A DNA stretch of 10,180 nucleotides, from contig CAIQCA010000064.1 of assembly GCA_903870235.1 (NCBI GenBank), positions 1 to 10,180 of the forward strand, given 5' to 3'. Positions 2,088 through 10,180 of the stretch are shown here, in pieces. The stretch is from an uncultured bacterium (GTDB lineage: Bacteria; Patescibacteriota; Minisyncoccia; Phycocordibacterales; PALSA-1337). A program made the translations under genes and the position numbers. The stretch's first letter is position 1. Every line of letters starts with the position of its first letter. The notes under the pieces are model-generated. The model saw only the letters and a list, made by a program, of their open reading frames with translations. It had not been told where the DNA came from and did not search any database.

Positions 2088-3035
2088 ATGTGTACAAATA
2101 TGCCTAAAAACATAGTCGAGGAGCGTTTAAGATGGGTACAAATGGTAGAAAGCGGTAATGTGAGGTTAAAAGATGTAATTGAGATATTCCCTCACAGTGG
2201 AAGGACTCTCAAACGGTGGTTAAAAGAATATCGTGCTAAGGGTGAGGCAGGTTTGATACCTAAATCCACTAAGCCTAAGAGTAATCCTAAAGAGTCGCCA
2301 ATTCACGTAAAAGAAAGAGTCGTTAATATGAGAAAGAAGACGAAGCTCTGTGCGCTCAAATTAAAATGGAAATTAGAAAAAGAAGGTATTCACATCCACG
2401 AACGTACTGTTGGAAAGATTCTCAAAAGTGAAGATTTAGTCAGGAAGTACCGTATCAAGAAAGTTAAGTACAAATATATCAGAGCCCTAAGACAACCAGG
2501 TGAATTGGTTGAGATTGATGTGAAGTATGTGCCAGGAAAGGTCTCTGGTAAGCGATATTACCAATATACAGCCATTGATACTGCTTCTAGGTGGAGATAC
2601 TTGAGTGTGTATGATGAACAGACCACATACAACTCAATTCAATTTCTAGCAGATGCGATGAAAAGATTTCCACACAAGATTCATGCCATCAAATCAGACA
2701 ATGGGAGCATATTCACCAACTACTACGTTGGTACAAACAAAAGAAGTGACCAAACTGTTAAAAGATTGCATGCTCTAGATGTCTTCTGTACACAAAACAA
2801 TATCATCCATTATTTGATTGATCCGGGTAAGCCAGCACAGAACGGTACAGTCGAAAGAAGTCATCGCGAAGATCAGGAGAAGTTCTATGACCAAAACACA
2901 TTTAAAACATTTTCCGAATTACAAAAGAAAATCAAAATCTGGAACAATTACTACAACAACCTTGAACACTGTGGCTTAAATGGAAAAACACCCAACGAAA
3001 TGCTAGGATTCAAAGTGACAAATGTGTGTACCTAA
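2088..3035 (+). CDS. IS481-like family DDE transposase
   Basis: The 315-residue transposase would catalyse strand transfer of its own element. Residues about 10-50 are a helix-turn-helix region, followed by the EAGLIPKSTKP linker typical of IS481-type proteins, and a second DNA-binding segment to about 130. From about 138 comes an integrase-core (rve) domain with a full acidic triad: Asp144 (VEIDVKY), Asp204 (KSDNG) and Glu256 (NGTVERSH). The Asp-Glu spacing of 52 is longer than the common 35, owing to an insert around residues 212-235. The frame is intact, so the element may be active. Two starts are possible: ATG 2088 (MCTN) or ATG 2100 (MPKNIVEERL). Bases 2087-2098 resemble the terminal-repeat core and overlap the first start, which could let the transposase bind near its own start and limit expression. 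Confidence 0.9.
   Translation: MCTNMPKNIVEERLRWVQMVESGNVRLKDVIEIFPHSGRTLKRWLKEYRAKGEAGLIPKSTKPKSNPKESPIHVKERVVNMRKKTKLCALKLKWKLEKEGIHIHERTVGKILKSEDLVRKYRIKKVKYKYIRALRQPGELVEIDVKYVPGKVSGKRYYQYTAIDTASRWRYLSVYDEQTTYNSIQFLADAMKRFPHKIHAIKSDNGSIFTNYYVGTNKRSDQTVKRLHALDVFCTQNNIIHYLIDPGKPAQNGTVERSHREDQEKFYDQNTFKTFSELQKKIKIWNNYYNNLEHCGLNGKTPNEMLGFKVTNVCT
3012..3031 (-). repeat. Right terminal inverted repeat of the IS
   Basis: Inverted partner of 2052-2071 (18 of 20 matches). It lies inside the transposase reading frame and encodes its last residues (KVTNVCT), with the stop codon at 3033-3035 at or across the element boundary. Confidence 0.85.
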
Positions 3036-5745: not shown

Positions 5746-6867
5746 ATGTACAAAGACCTTGCCAGTATTAAGTCCATAAATAACTCGATGACGGCCAATG
5801 AGGCTGTCGAAAATATTTTATGTTTGGCTGTGGCAGAAGGTGCCTCCGATATTCATTGTGATCCGAGGCATACGGATATTTTAATTAGGATGCGATCGGA
5901 TGGATTGATTAGCGAAGTTGGTACATTACCACGACGTCTCACTGATGAGTTTATTTCTAGATTAAAAATACTTTCTGGAGCTCGTACGGATGTGCATGCT
6001 GTTCCGCAAGATGGTCGCTGGCAAACTCACGTCAATGGTCAGGCTTACAATATTCGTATCTCGTTCATGCCGACTTACTATGGCGAGAACGCAGTGATGA
6101 GGATTTTATCAACAGCAATAGCAGGACAATCTTCTTTTGCTGGCCTTGGTTTTACTCCGGATCATGTCTATGCCATCATCGAAGCCCTGAAGAAGACTAG
6201 TGGGCTTATCTTGGTAACTGGTCCAACTGGTTCAGGAAAAACCACAACGCTTCACACTTGTTTGACCTCGAAGCGAAGAGAGCCTCTCTCCATAGTGACC
6301 CTTGAAGATCCAGTTGAATATGAAATTGCTGGTGTTAGTCAGGTCCATATTCGACAGACACACGGTGTGACATTTGCTTCAGGTCTTCGTTCGGTTCTAC
6401 GTCAAGACCCAGACGTTATCATGGTTGGTGAAATCCGTGACAATGAAACCGCGCGCGTGGCGGTACACACGGCTTTGACTGGCCACTTAGTTCTTTCAAC
6501 TTTACATACGAACTCCGCACTGGAAACAATCCCACGTTTGCTAGATATGGGAGTTGATAATTATTTGTTGGCGGCCACTTTACGACTTATCGTCGCTCAG
6601 CGGTTAGTACGGACTATTTGTCGCGATTGTGGAATGGTTGGTTGTGAATCTTGCAATCAAACCGGATATCACGGCCGAACGATTATTGCCGAAGTTTGTC
6701 TGATCGATGACAAGATGCAGAAGATGATTGCAGACAAAAAGTCTCTGTCAGATATCGCGTCTTATGCAAAGTCGCATGGTTTTCATTCTATAAACCAAGA
6801 TGGTCTCGAAAAGGTCGATTGGGGCATAACTTCGCACGAAGAGTTGACGCGCGTACTAGCAACATGA
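5746..6867 (+). CDS. pilB: Type IV pilus assembly ATPase, short PilB/GspE form
   Basis: This cytoplasmic hexameric ATPase would drive pilus extension together with PilC. Visible motifs are ASDIHCDP (35-42) of the N2 domain, Walker A GPTGSGKTT (159-167), the Asp box LEDPVEYE (186-193), Walker B DPDVIMVGEIRD (221-232, catalytic Glu229) and a His box around TGHLVLSTLHT. Four cysteines at 292, 295, 300 and 303 (CxxC-x4-CxxC) form the zinc site typical of PilB/GspE and absent from PilT, so it is an assembly rather than retraction ATPase. At 373 residues it lacks the N1 domain of about 150-200 residues found in full-length PilB of roughly 560. The ORF starts right after a -10-like box, so truncation by misannotation is unlikely. 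Its stop overlaps the pilC start (ATGA), indicating translational coupling. Confidence 0.93.
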   Translation: MYKDLASIKSINNSMTANEAVENILCLAVAEGASDIHCDPRHTDILIRMRSDGLISEVGTLPRRLTDEFISRLKILSGARTDVHAVPQDGRWQTHVNGQAYNIRISFMPTYYGENAVMRILSTAIAGQSSFAGLGFTPDHVYAIIEALKKTSGLILVTGPTGSGKTTTLHTCLTSKRREPLSIVTLEDPVEYEIAGVSQVHIRQTHGVTFASGLRSVLRQDPDVIMVGEIRDNETARVAVHTALTGHLVLSTLHTNSALETIPRLLDMGVDNYLLAATLRLIVAQRLVRTICRDCGMVGCESCNQTGYHGRTIIAEVCLIDDKMQKMIADKKSLSDIASYAKSHGFHSINQDGLEKVDWGITSHEELTRVLAT

Positions 6868-7976
6868 TTTTCTCCCTTATTAATTTTTCTCCCAGACGGG
6901 TGTATTCTTGGAGTAGACGAGATCTTATATTTCTACTCGAACAACTTGAAATGTACGTTTCAGCTGGTTTATCAGTTGGCCAAGGGTTAGAAATTATCAA
7001 GAAGGGAACAGTTGAAGGAGGACACGGACCAAGAAGCGGTAGTTCTGGTAAGAAGCGTGCCAGTATAGAGAAAGTACGTAGTCGGGTTGAATCCGGTGGT
7101 CTTTTGTCACAAGCTCTTTTTGATAATGTCGGTCTTTCTAAGTCATTGGCCGGAATTATTGAGCACGGTGAACGCGTCGGAGGACTTTCTTCAGCCCTTA
7201 AATCTGCTCATGATTTGCTCGCCAAAGAAGACGAACTCATAAAGAAATGCCTTTCAGCCATGACCTATCCCGTAGTAATTGCTCTTTTAGCAGTTGTTCT
7301 GACAATTGGTCTTATGCGCGGAGTTGTTCCTCAAATTGTGCCAATGCTTACCAGTATGCATGTAGAGTTACCTATTTTGACCAAGATGACCATATGGCTT
7401 TCAGGTGTCTTAGTCTCTTGGGGTTTATTGATTATTGTGGCTGGTTTTGTTGTCGTTACCGTTACGGTATATGTTTATAAAAAATTCCCAGTACTTAAAA
7501 AGTTTTTTCATTCTCTAGTTTTTAGGTTACCGCTTATCGGCAATTTGATTTATTTGTATTCACTCTCTATATTTTTGAGATCTTTGGGAACTCTGATAAA
7601 TTCCGGCATACCAGTTGCGGAAGCATATTCCGAAGTTATCGGCACCACAACTTTTGAGCCATTGAGTTCGGCCATTTTTCACGGGGTAGTAGATGTGAGG
7701 AATGGCTTGCCATTACAAGACATTTTTTTACACAAAGAAATACCGGCTTATGTAGCGCCACTTATCTCTGCGGGTGAATCCTCTGGTTCTTTAGGAGAAT
7801 CATTAATTCGTGCCGCATCGATTATTGATGTGGATATAGAAGATACACTGAAACGTACGACATCACTCATCGAACCACTTATGATGGTCGTGGTTGGTGG
7901 AATAGTTGGTGCGATCGCCTTATCCATAATGATGCCGATATATGACATGTCGAAAGTCTTACAACATATTCACTGA
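6864..7976 (+). CDS. pilC: Type IV pilus inner-membrane platform protein (PilC/GspF)
   Basis: The 370-residue protein is the membrane platform that couples the PilB motor to pilin insertion. It has the family's two repeated T2SF domains (about 24-148 and 229-352), each with a GExxGxL signature (GERVGGL 102-108, GESSGSL 304-310). Membrane helices are at about 132-150, 183-206 and 338-358. A Gly/Ser/Lys-rich insert (about 46-66) interrupts the first domain. I chose ATG 6864 because it overlaps the pilB stop as ATGA and puts the conserved LLEQLEMYVSAG segment near the N-terminus; an upstream ATG at 6819 would add 15 residues inside pilB without homology-like content. The 3' end overlaps the next gene by 35 bases. 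Confidence 0.93.
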   Translation: MIFSLINFSPRRVYSWSRRDLIFLLEQLEMYVSAGLSVGQGLEIIKKGTVEGGHGPRSGSSGKKRASIEKVRSRVESGGLLSQALFDNVGLSKSLAGIIEHGERVGGLSSALKSAHDLLAKEDELIKKCLSAMTYPVVIALLAVVLTIGLMRGVVPQIVPMLTSMHVELPILTKMTIWLSGVLVSWGLLIIVAGFVVVTVTVYVYKKFPVLKKFFHSLVFRLPLIGNLIYLYSLSIFLRSLGTLINSGIPVAEAYSEVIGTTTFEPLSSAIFHGVVDVRNGLPLQDIFLHKEIPAYVAPLISAGESSGSLGESLIRAASIIDVDIEDTLKRTTSLIEPLMMVVVGGIVGAIALSIMMPIYDMSKVLQHIH

Positions 7977-9300
7977 AGGAATGATTCTTGTTGATATTTT
8001 GGTAGCCATGTCACTAGCGACTCTTTTTGTTGCTCTGTTTTCGGCCAGGATTTTTTCTACAGAACAAAGTTTTGTTCGGGCTCATGAAAGGATGGTCATA
8101 CTTATGGCCAGTAGTTCGTCGATGATTAATTTGTTCAGCTTAAATCTCACTTCGCCTATTTTTATTCCCGTATCTAGCTCGCCAGCTTGCTCAACAGATT
8201 TTATACAAGGTTTTATCTCGCCAATCATTACAGAAATTCCATTACCAATTTCGTCGACGATGCCGCTTACCCATTTGGAAGTTCGCGATGGAATAGCTTT
8301 TGTATCGACTGATTCGAATATCACCTCAGACCCAGATTTGTTTGTGATCAATATCTCCAACTCATCTATTATTTCATCTATCAATACTGGTCCAGGCATT
8401 TCTTCTTTTGTATTAATTGGTAAGAAGATTTTTGCGGCTGCAGCAAGCACTGCTGCTCAACTTCATGTTATCGATTTCAGTGGCACCACTTCGCCGAGCA
8501 TACCTTTTCTTTCCAAGAAGTATCAACTGCCATTACCATATGCAACAGCTACTCCACCGTATGCTACGGCGATTTCGTTTGGATTTAATGGTAATTATGG
8601 TGGTGATTGGGTTAGTGGTGACACCAATTTCAGTCCACCGACCAGTCCTCAAATATACCTTGGTACAGAGCGCTGGGATGGCGACGAGCTTGCCGTTATC
8701 GATGTTTCGAATCCGGAGGTACCAGTGTGGCAGAGCGGTTTAGATATTGGTAGTAAGGTAAATGATATAGAGGTGGACACAAGTACAAGTAGTCTTGGCG
8801 GTGTCTATATATCTAATGCTAGTCAAAACCAATTGATTCGTGCTGATCTTGGAAGTATTGTGGCGACTCTTGAATTAAATATCACCGAAAAATTTTCTCC
8901 AACTGGTTGGTCTCGTCAAGAGGGAAAAGTTTCCAGTATTTTGGGTGGGAATCTTGTCTTTGGCAGAACTTCTGGAGGATATGATATCGCGACAGATCAT
9001 GAATTGTTTTCTTGGGCTTCAACACCGCCGATAAACCCATTGATCTCAGATGTATTGAATGGGCCCTATAATTCAAAAAATATTCCCGGTGGTGTTTATG
9101 GAATCATTCAGGATGCCAAGCATATTTATCTGATCACGCGCCAAGCCGGAAAGGAGTTTCAAGTATTCGATAAAACACTTGCTACAAGCAGTTATTTTTC
9201 GTTGGCCACACAGCCCCAGTCTGTAACTTGTGATGGTGAGATTATATACGTTTTGTCACACACTTCGCCAATTATATATGCTATATCGTTTACAAAATAA
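7942..9300 (+). CDS. Prepilin-like protein with C-terminal beta-propeller (candidate pilus tip/adhesin subunit)
   Basis: The 452-residue protein starts with a 13-residue leader ending in Gly (MTCRKSYNIFTEG) and then MILVDILVAM plus a hydrophobic helix to about 36. This is a type IV prepilin signal of PilV flavour with Asp instead of Glu at +5. The start at 7942 is preferred because ATG 7981 would remove the leader. Residues about 93-452 are beta-rich with repeats of the LVIVD/propeller kind: DLFVINISN (132-140), QLHVIDFSG (173-181), DELAVIDVSN (248-257) and KEFQVFDK (404-411). By eye about seven blades can be drawn. The only cysteines in the mature protein are Cys83, near the stalk, and Cys430, in the last blade; a disulfide could close the structure. 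It overlaps pilC by 35 bases and the next prepilin by 23. A tip adhesin role is inference. Confidence 0.78.
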   Translation: MTCRKSYNIFTEGMILVDILVAMSLATLFVALFSARIFSTEQSFVRAHERMVILMASSSSMINLFSLNLTSPIFIPVSSSPACSTDFIQGFISPIITEIPLPISSTMPLTHLEVRDGIAFVSTDSNITSDPDLFVINISNSSIISSINTGPGISSFVLIGKKIFAAAASTAAQLHVIDFSGTTSPSIPFLSKKYQLPLPYATATPPYATAISFGFNGNYGGDWVSGDTNFSPPTSPQIYLGTERWDGDELAVIDVSNPEVPVWQSGLDIGSKVNDIEVDTSTSSLGGVYISNASQNQLIRADLGSIVATLELNITEKFSPTGWSRQEGKVSSILGGNLVFGRTSGGYDIATDHELFSWASTPPINPLISDVLNGPYNSKNIPGGVYGIIQDAKHIYLITRQAGKEFQVFDKTLATSSYFSLATQPQSVTCDGEIIYVLSHTSPIIYAISFTK

Positions 9301-9466
9301 CAATATAAATTTATCTCGCACGAGAGATGGTATGACACTAATCGAAATACTTATTTATGTGGCGCTTCTCTCTGTGCTTTTATCTGGATTTTTTAGTTAT
9401 CTATATAATTTAAATGATTCCGAAATGAGTATATACAATCAAGTTCATGAAACTTATGATGAATAA
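9278..9466 (+). CDS. Very short type IV prepilin (PilW/GspJ-like N-terminus only)
   Basis: With ATG 9278 this is 62 residues. It has an 18-residue leader (MLYRLQNNNINLSRTRDG), then MTLIEILIYVALLSVLL, a standard prepilin cleavage site with Glu at +5 and a hydrophobic helix. Only about 44 residues would remain after processing, so there is essentially no globular head; ordinary minor pilins are 120-200 residues. The start overlaps the propeller gene by 23 bases, and its 3' end overlaps possible upstream starts of the next gene. Earlier in-frame ATGs lie inside the propeller gene and would only lengthen the leader. It could be a minimal pilin or the remnant of a longer PilW-like gene. Confidence 0.62.
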   Translation: MLYRLQNNNINLSRTRDGMTLIEILIYVALLSVLLSGFFSYLYNLNDSEMSIYNQVHETYDE

Positions 9467-9488
9467 ATATTTTATAGGACAAAAGATC

Positions 9489-9881
9489 ATGATCAATAAA
9501 AGGGGATTTATTGCCACTATATCTGTTGTGATTTTAGCGTTTGCGATTGTATCTCTTGTAATAGTGGTCGATAATGCAATGAATAGCTATATAGACAATG
9601 TTTATCTCTATGAATTACGCTTCTATGTACGTCAGGATATTAAATCGTGTTTGTCGGTCACTGAAAATATGTTGGCGCATGATTTCTTTCTTCGAGGCAT
9701 TGTAAATATGCTGGCCAATAATTGTGTAGTCTTTATTGAAAATAATATTGCGCAAAATATGCCAAATTCAGTGTTACTTCACGTATCAGTAAAAATTAAT
9801 CAGGTTGTAATGAAAGTTGATGAAACAATTGTTCTTGAGAATCTTGATCTCAAGGTTGTGGAGAGAATTGTGAATTATTAG
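9489..9881 (+). CDS. Minor prepilin, PilX/GspK-like, lacking Glu+5
   Basis: From ATG 9489 the protein is 131 residues. The leader MINKRG is followed by FIATISVVILAFAIVSLVIV, a prepilin-type helix, with Ile at +5 instead of Glu, a trait of GspK/PilX-type subunits that cap the pseudopilus tip. The start is preferred over ATGs at 9447, 9456 and 9459 because it gives a compact basic leader and has AGGA nine bases upstream, one of the few Shine-Dalgarno-like sites in the window. Two cysteines (in KSCLSV and NNCVVF) could form a disulfide. The rest is unrecognised alpha/beta sequence. It is the last gene of the continuous pilus run; about 80 bases and a likely new promoter separate it from the tRNA. 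Confidence 0.65.
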   Translation: MINKRGFIATISVVILAFAIVSLVIVVDNAMNSYIDNVYLYELRFYVRQDIKSCLSVTENMLAHDFFLRGIVNMLANNCVVFIENNIAQNMPNSVLLHVSVKINQVVMKVDETIVLENLDLKVVERIVNY

Positions 9882-9962: not shown

Positions 9963-10046
9963 GCCCGGGTGGCGAAATTGGTAGACGCAACAGACTTAAA
10001 ATTTGTCGACCGTGAGGTCATGTGGGTTCGATTCCCACCCCGGGCA
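9963..10046 (+). tRNA. tRNA-Leu (anticodon UAA)
   Basis: The 84 bases fold as a class II tRNA. The acceptor arm GCCCGGG/CCCGGGC (9963-9969 with 10039-10045) is perfect with discriminator A10046. The anticodon stem ACAGA/TTTGT holds loop CTTAAAA with anticodon TAA at 9997-9999. A long variable arm GACC-GTGA-GGTC is diagnostic of Leu, and the T arm is GTGGG-TTCGATT-CCCAC. The 3' CCA is not encoded (CAA follows the discriminator), so a CCA-adding enzyme is needed. It reads UUA and, by wobble, UUG. Confidence 0.97.
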
Positions 10047-10060
10047 CAAAAAATAATTAT

Positions 10061-10118: not shown

Positions 10119-10180
10119 ATGAAGCACTCTCGTAAAGGTTTTACATTGCTCGAAATCCTCCTCGTCGTAGCCATCATAGC
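10119..10180 (+). CDS. Type IV prepilin, 5' part only (cut by window end)
   Basis: Twenty codons are visible: a seven-residue basic leader MKHSRKG, then FTLLEILLVVAII. This is a textbook class a prepilin site with Gly at -1, Phe at +1 and Glu at +5. The short leader and canonical site make it the best candidate in the window for a main pilus subunit, although the rest lies outside. It has its own TATACT box after the tRNA, so it is probably transcribed separately from the upstream pilus genes. No Shine-Dalgarno site is evident. Confidence 0.88.
   Translation, partial: MKHSRKGFTLLEILLVVAII

Follow-up and report, generated by a model that had tools for sequence, protein, structure and literature searches.

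A candidate pilus-tip protein that joins a prepilin helix to a beta-propeller in an uncultured Patescibacterium

The window analysed here is a stretch of 10,180 nucleotides (contig CAIQCA010000064.1 of assembly GCA_903870235.1) from an uncultured bacterium of the phylum Patescibacteriota. On its forward strand, which also carries the other pilus genes described below, lies a gene at 7942..9300 for a protein of 452 amino acids. This protein is a genuine one-piece fusion, in which a prepilin leader and pilin helix are joined directly to what is modelled as a seven-bladed beta-propeller. Probably it takes the GspI/PilV position among the minor pilins of a dedicated type IV filament, where it would prime assembly and hold a ligand-binding propeller at the tip, on a linker pinned by a disulfide. 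Because nearly all Patescibacteria are uncultured, the means by which most of them hold on to a partner or a surface have stayed hidden.

The leader comprises residues 1-13 (7942..7980) and has Gly at position -1, as do all 95 of the 95 alignment rows with a letter at that column. The alpha1 helix follows (residues 14-66, 7981..8139), then a linker, and then the propeller (residues 95-449, 8224..9288). In the AlphaFold2 model (predicted local distance difference test, pLDDT, 87.6) there is no pilin head, and the propeller comes straight after the helix; the linker is modelled with low confidence. The strand list of the model gives seven blades with a velcro closure, blade 7 being closed by strand 95-100; the grouping into blades is ours. 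Fold searches with the model return propeller matches. A preliminary description of this DNA, made from the letters alone, had proposed a prepilin leader and helix followed by a propeller of about seven blades, and alignment and model bear it out. Its mention of LVIVD-type repeats holds for the relatives: 10 of 10 that were scanned exceed the curated cut-off for LVIVD (PF08309, which we take to be the same as IPR013211), while the window protein itself scores only 10.8 bits against a cut-off of 20.2.

A profile search of PDB sequences found nothing at E<=1. At the same threshold, the window protein matches neither the PilY1 domain PF05567 nor any RCC1 family in Pfam. No PilY1 structure is among the 50 fold-search matches listed, and these searches speak neither for nor against kinship with PilY1. 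As modelled, the protein fits the definition of a modular pilin: its N-terminal part is that of a pilin, here leader and helix only, and to this is attached a functional domain of another kind.

Relatives were collected with a protein search in which 7996 candidates were scored; 257 were found at E<=1e-3, and 120 were listed, including the window's own protein. The close set (A2, 114 rows) was drawn from those 120; left out were P0019, P0043, P0047, P0104, P0106 and P0115, which are mostly short, and P0001, a later-start version of the window protein. The distant set (A5, 106 rows) consists of 120 listed proteins minus fourteen, which are thirteen of more than 560 amino acids and P0188, which came without contig data. 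A further set, A3, leaves out loci L067-L071 and most of L031-L059, of which three were used. L031-L059 and L002-L030 have several contigs in common.

A single reading frame could also result from an assembly or sequencing error that merged two genes. One locus, L055, does have helix and propeller as separate open reading frames (ORFs). They are in one frame in the window, in the other 28 of the 29 loci L031-L059 and in the rows of the close-family alignment. These relatives come from many separate assemblies, and the merging of two genes by error was rejected; the chance of it is negligible.

The start of the protein resembles a class III signal peptide, in that a short leader, with Gly as its last residue, is followed by the long, hydrophobic alpha1 helix. 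A prepilin peptidase gene is found in 56 of 60 genomes, the window's included. The residue at +5 of the mature pilin is Asp18 (codon 7993-7995) instead of the canonical Glu. Of the close-family rows, all 111 that have a letter in this column show Asp, as do L042 and L051; in the distant set it is Glu in 97 of 97 such rows. The N_methyl family (PF07963) has no match in the window protein at E<=1, and was found in 3 of 10 scanned relatives (L073, L075 and L079), weakly and below cut-off.

The propeller gene was matched in 37 of 60 whole genomes, one of the 37 being the window's. Among the 41 loci that have a name, several belong to Candidatus Taylorbacteria and Candidatus Nomurabacteria. A profile search over the phylum matches 59 of 379 genomes at E<=1e-5; many of these matches cover few blades of long proteins and are uninformative on the fusion. 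A survey of related pilus clusters, which the preliminary description had named as a check, finds the same fusion with pilC adjacent in 29 of the 33 other genomes of the genus. Propeller gene and close pilC are jointly present in these 29 and jointly absent in the remaining four, where 'close' means E<=1e-67, a threshold set after a gap down to 9e-47 had been seen. Of the four, G007 is 96% complete, and G006, G009 and G019 are 54-76% complete. The window's own genome is 74.6% complete, with four PilC-family matches.

A pilC match lies beside the propeller gene in 29 of 29 relatives' loci (L002-L030), and in L031-L066 a pilC on the same strand is upstream of it in 36 of 36. An ATPase gene precedes pilC in 33 of these, and the remaining three have less than 1.1 kb upstream. 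One genome, CAIUOX01, has two copies of the propeller gene (L040 and L046), each adjoining its own pilC.

Fourteen distant loci (L067-L071 and L073-L081) suggest an origin. There the propeller follows a complete pilin head, and an H-like and a J-like pilin often flank the gene. H-I-J-K is the gene order of the classical minor pseudopilins. A pilin in the H position lies upstream in 7 of the 14, a full-length J-position pilin downstream in 11 (108-161 residues after Gly), and both flank the propeller gene in 7. In L077 and L081 the order is pilC, H-position pilin, propeller protein, J-position pilin, K/PilX-like pilin (lacking Glu at +5) and major-type pilin. L078 and L079 agree with it as far as K, L073 has H through major pilin, L080 has pilC, propeller, J, K and major, and L076 has propeller, J, K and major. 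The fuller arrangement is found in seven of the nine loci L073-L081.

The distant protein P0121 (L078) was modelled with a pLDDT of 93.9. It has a helix at 9-67, a four-strand pilin head at 75-121, and then the propeller. Among three distant proteins scanned against NCBIfam, that of L073 resembles PilV/GspI, that of L078 resembles ComGE/XpsI, and that of L076 matches nothing; the resemblances are weak and below cut-off. The propellers of the close and distant groups are homologous (hhalign probability 100, E 6.6e-54). The distance from +5 to the first cysteine has a median of 120 residues in the distant set and 94 (55-139) in the close set, and is 65 in the window. With such a range, part of the head may survive in some close relatives, while it is gone from the window protein as modelled. 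The core of the GspI-GspJ-GspK pseudopilus tip complex is formed by GspI and GspJ, according to the available text of PMC6211770, and the propeller protein would therefore be a subunit of such a complex. The preliminary description had proposed a candidate pilus tip adhesin; the support for a tip position is indirect and comes from the distant gene order that resembles H-I-J-K.

In L031-L066 no H-like pilin was found (0 of 36), and one of these loci has only 324 bases upstream. What follows the propeller gene in the window is a mini-pilin at 9329..9466, of 44 residues after Gly and with an ambiguous start codon, conserved as the next gene in relatives. In L031-L059 the next downstream prepilin likewise has only 40-48 residues after Gly in 26 of 29 loci. 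L049 and L054 have it joined in frame with the PilX-like protein that comes next, and L032 stops short of it. The loci with Glu at +5, L060-L066, have a mini-pilin of 31-52 residues in 6 of 7, none being found in L065.

Over 27 mini-pilins (351 pairs), the mean proportion of synonymous differences (pS) is 0.80 and that of nonsynonymous differences (pN) 0.36. Because pN is below pS, this speaks for a selected gene, although pS is near saturation and the ratio is rough. A profile of 26 mini-pilins finds 9 of the 11 full-length J-position pilins of L067-L081 (E 1.8e-11 to 0.0023). It fails on two (L080 at E 1.1; L081 not found at E<=10), and H, K and major pilins score E 0.33 or worse. A short J-like ORF of 50 amino acids in L070 scores E 3.5e-4. 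Given this preference, the best reading of the mini-pilin is that of a J pilin which lacks its head. To judge by their sequences, then, the loci of the window's clade are missing the H-like gene and have a headless J-like neighbour.

The loops of the propeller were assigned to its two faces by strand order. The closing strand 95-100 runs upward from the stalk side, which puts the DA and BC loops on the far face. In the close set, conservation measured as Jensen-Shannon divergence is 0.656 for these loops (99 positions) versus 0.414 for the AB and CD loops (51 well-occupied positions; 0.270 over all 85). The permutation p of 5e-5 is the smallest possible with 20,000 shuffles, in a test that takes positions as independent. 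With the same method, the faces are alike in the distant set (0.452 versus 0.453, p 0.51), where one strand of blade 4 was placed by hand in the model. Had far-face conservation been a general property of propellers, the distant clade should have shown it as well, and it did not. Since it is confined to the window's clade, it suggests that the far face there recognises a conserved ligand. Acidic residues are numerous among the conserved positions: D124, D130, D132, E249, D352 and E354.

Two cysteines stand out as well. Cys83 (codon 8188..8190) is in the linker, where the model has an isolated beta-bridge, and Cys430 (codon 9229..9231) is in the inner strand of blade 7. In the close set they come second and third among all positions in degree of conservation, and both are present in 114 of 114 rows. 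By topology, Cys430 sits near the stalk-side end of its strand and Cys83 precedes the closing strand, so that a bond between them would keep the linker fixed beneath the propeller. A VKOR-type enzyme, which could form disulfides, is found in 41 of 60 genomes, the window's included. The disulfide lock between stalk and last blade that the preliminary description had raised is likely.

Strict co-occurrence of the two cysteines looked perfect in A2, A3 and A5. In the distant set 102 of 106 rows have both, 4 neither and none a single one, and in A3 19 have both and 1 neither. Of five loci left out of A3, 1 has both, 1 neither, and 3 the first only, which breaks the pattern. A GID or GIE motif replaces the second cysteine in the four distant rows with neither and in several of the five extra loci. 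From the shared motif, its carriers are probably one lineage, and therefore the cysteine counts are not independent. The distant alignment has further cysteines at columns 398 and 424, each in 50 of 106 members, perhaps a second pair.

The rest of the window's pilus cluster fits around this gene. Upstream are an assembly ATPase of 373 amino acids, GspE/PilB-like (5746..6867, Pfam T2SSE E 1.3e-110), and a PilC/GspF-like platform protein (6819..7976, T2SSF E 9.2e-35). The ATPase is without the N-terminal part of the GspE and PilB models, its best in NCBIfam, matching them from model positions 113 and 184 respectively and below both cut-offs. Downstream of the mini-pilin is a PilX/GspK-like pilin without Glu at +5 (GFIATIS..., 9447..9881, or from an alternative ATG at 9489), so called by position and sequence; it has no Pfam match reaching cut-off and no NCBIfam match. 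At 10119..10180 the contig end cuts off a further pilin N-terminus, GFTLLEILLVVAII, probably of a major pilin, as follows in a number of relatives. The preliminary description had noted that the cluster has no pilY1, and none of ten scanned window proteins matches PilY1, in a contig that ends inside the cluster. Genome-wide, PF05567 has no match among 60 relatives or among 379 genomes of the phylum; the 14 control genomes are silent in both searches as well, so absence is unproven.

Other features of the window include a tRNA-Leu (anticodon taa) at 9963-10047, between the PilX-like gene and the last pilin; ORFs across it are probably spurious. Positions 1-1440 hold a gene that fuses an L,D-transpeptidase (YkuD) to a D-alanyl-D-alanine carboxypeptidase (S11), and in a number of relatives (L036, L041, L044 and others) this gene sits downstream of the pilins. 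Between it and hisS is a transposase-like gene with an rve integrase core (2088-3035).

The mechanism proposed as probable runs as follows. Prepilin peptidase would cut the propeller protein after Gly13, and its helix would pack into the filament alongside its two neighbours, the J-like and the K/PilX-like pilin. The tip complex of these three would prime assembly, which would bring the propeller to the pilus tip. A bond between Cys83 and Cys430 would pin the linker beneath the propeller and keep it stiff on its stalk, and the opposite face, formed by the DA and BC loops, would bind a conserved ligand displayed by some surface or by a partner cell. Several points weigh against this. Asp at +5 and the absent N_methyl match are, as sequence features, atypical for a pilin. 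L074 and L075 have no nearby H- or J-like pilin that could be found. L068, L069 and L071 have the first cysteine without the second. The face comparison assumes independent positions, and the choice of the outward face is uncertain, given a flexible linker that is modelled with low confidence.

What the propeller binds can be read in several ways. Host contact is plausible, and the probability that the propeller singles out a particular partner microbe, the role proposed for PilX2 of Saccharibacteria, falls somewhat short of even. In the accessible text of PMC12206443, cultivated Patescibacteria are episymbionts, and PilX2 of Nanosynbacter lyticus TM7x, a seven-bladed minor pilin, is needed for normal host binding: its deletion cut host-bound cells from about 10.6% to 4.6%. 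PilX2 differs, however, having RCC1 repeats and no predicted PilD signal (PMC12206443), and a diversifying, host-specific adhesin would not show a far face as unusually conserved as in this clade. That conservation fits a DNA-uptake or general surface pilus, with a propeller that binds DNA, polysaccharide or a common cell-wall component in competence or twitching. One distant member also has a weak match, at E 4.3e-4 and below cut-off, to ComGE, a minor pilin of competence. The many acidic residues on the conserved face disfavour DNA, and this reading as a whole is unlikely.

A different filament altogether is also conceivable: a short pseudopilus in a type II-like secretion system, where the propeller would touch cargo or act as a plug and would not be a surface adhesin. 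The ATPase and platform protein do score best against GspE and GspF, and the distant gene order resembles H-I-J-K. The PilB and PilC models score close behind, however, with all scores below cut-offs, and such a pseudopilus is quite improbable. Within the preferred reading, of a minor pilin with a propeller at the pilus tip, a tentative and somewhat doubtful extension is that the tip was minimised. The H-like pilin would have been lost, the J-like one would have become headless, and the I-like one would be losing its head and, in the window protein, would have lost it. Bare helices would then hold one disulfide-clamped propeller that took over the tip, its frozen far face recognising one widespread ligand, perhaps shared by all partners.

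A probable pilus-tip propeller family in several lineages of the phylum provides a defined, expressible domain for ligand tests. Its distant and reduced members suggest the steps by which a grafted domain displaces a pilin head and pares down a tip complex.

That a fused stalk and propeller departs from known pili, as the preliminary description had it, is not supported, since PilX2 (PMC12206443) and modular pilins (PMC8179133) are already described in the available text of these papers. PilX2 is likewise a minor pilin with a C-terminal seven-bladed propeller, working with a second type IV pilus system of a Patescibacterium; it is set apart by its description, which in the accessible text makes no mention of LVIVD repeats or a cysteine lock (PMC12206443). 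Modular pilins similarly have a functional domain grafted on a pilin and displayed by the filament, and the survey of them, in the text available, includes a Falkowbacteria protein with 12 IPR013211 motifs (PMC8179133). Among them, PilB of Streptococcus sanguinis retains its pilin module and carries a vWA domain, unlike the headless window protein (PMC8179133, accessible text).

GspI (XcpV) has a matching place in the gene order of the distant loci, and a pilin head is present in the distant P0121. To our knowledge GspI carries no propeller, whereas the window protein has one and, as modelled, no pilin head. The tip adhesin PilY1/PilC, in the available text of PMC7541494, is also a beta-propeller that acts with minor pilins in priming and in the tip complex. 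It differs in being a soluble protein separate from them, where the window protein is one piece. No paper naming this family or linking LVIVD with a pilin was found in the open-access library searched. As far as these searches reach, what is new is the family with its cysteine pair, its origin in the I position, the missing H gene together with a J neighbour that has no head, a window protein that lacks a head too, and far-face conservation confined to the window's clade.
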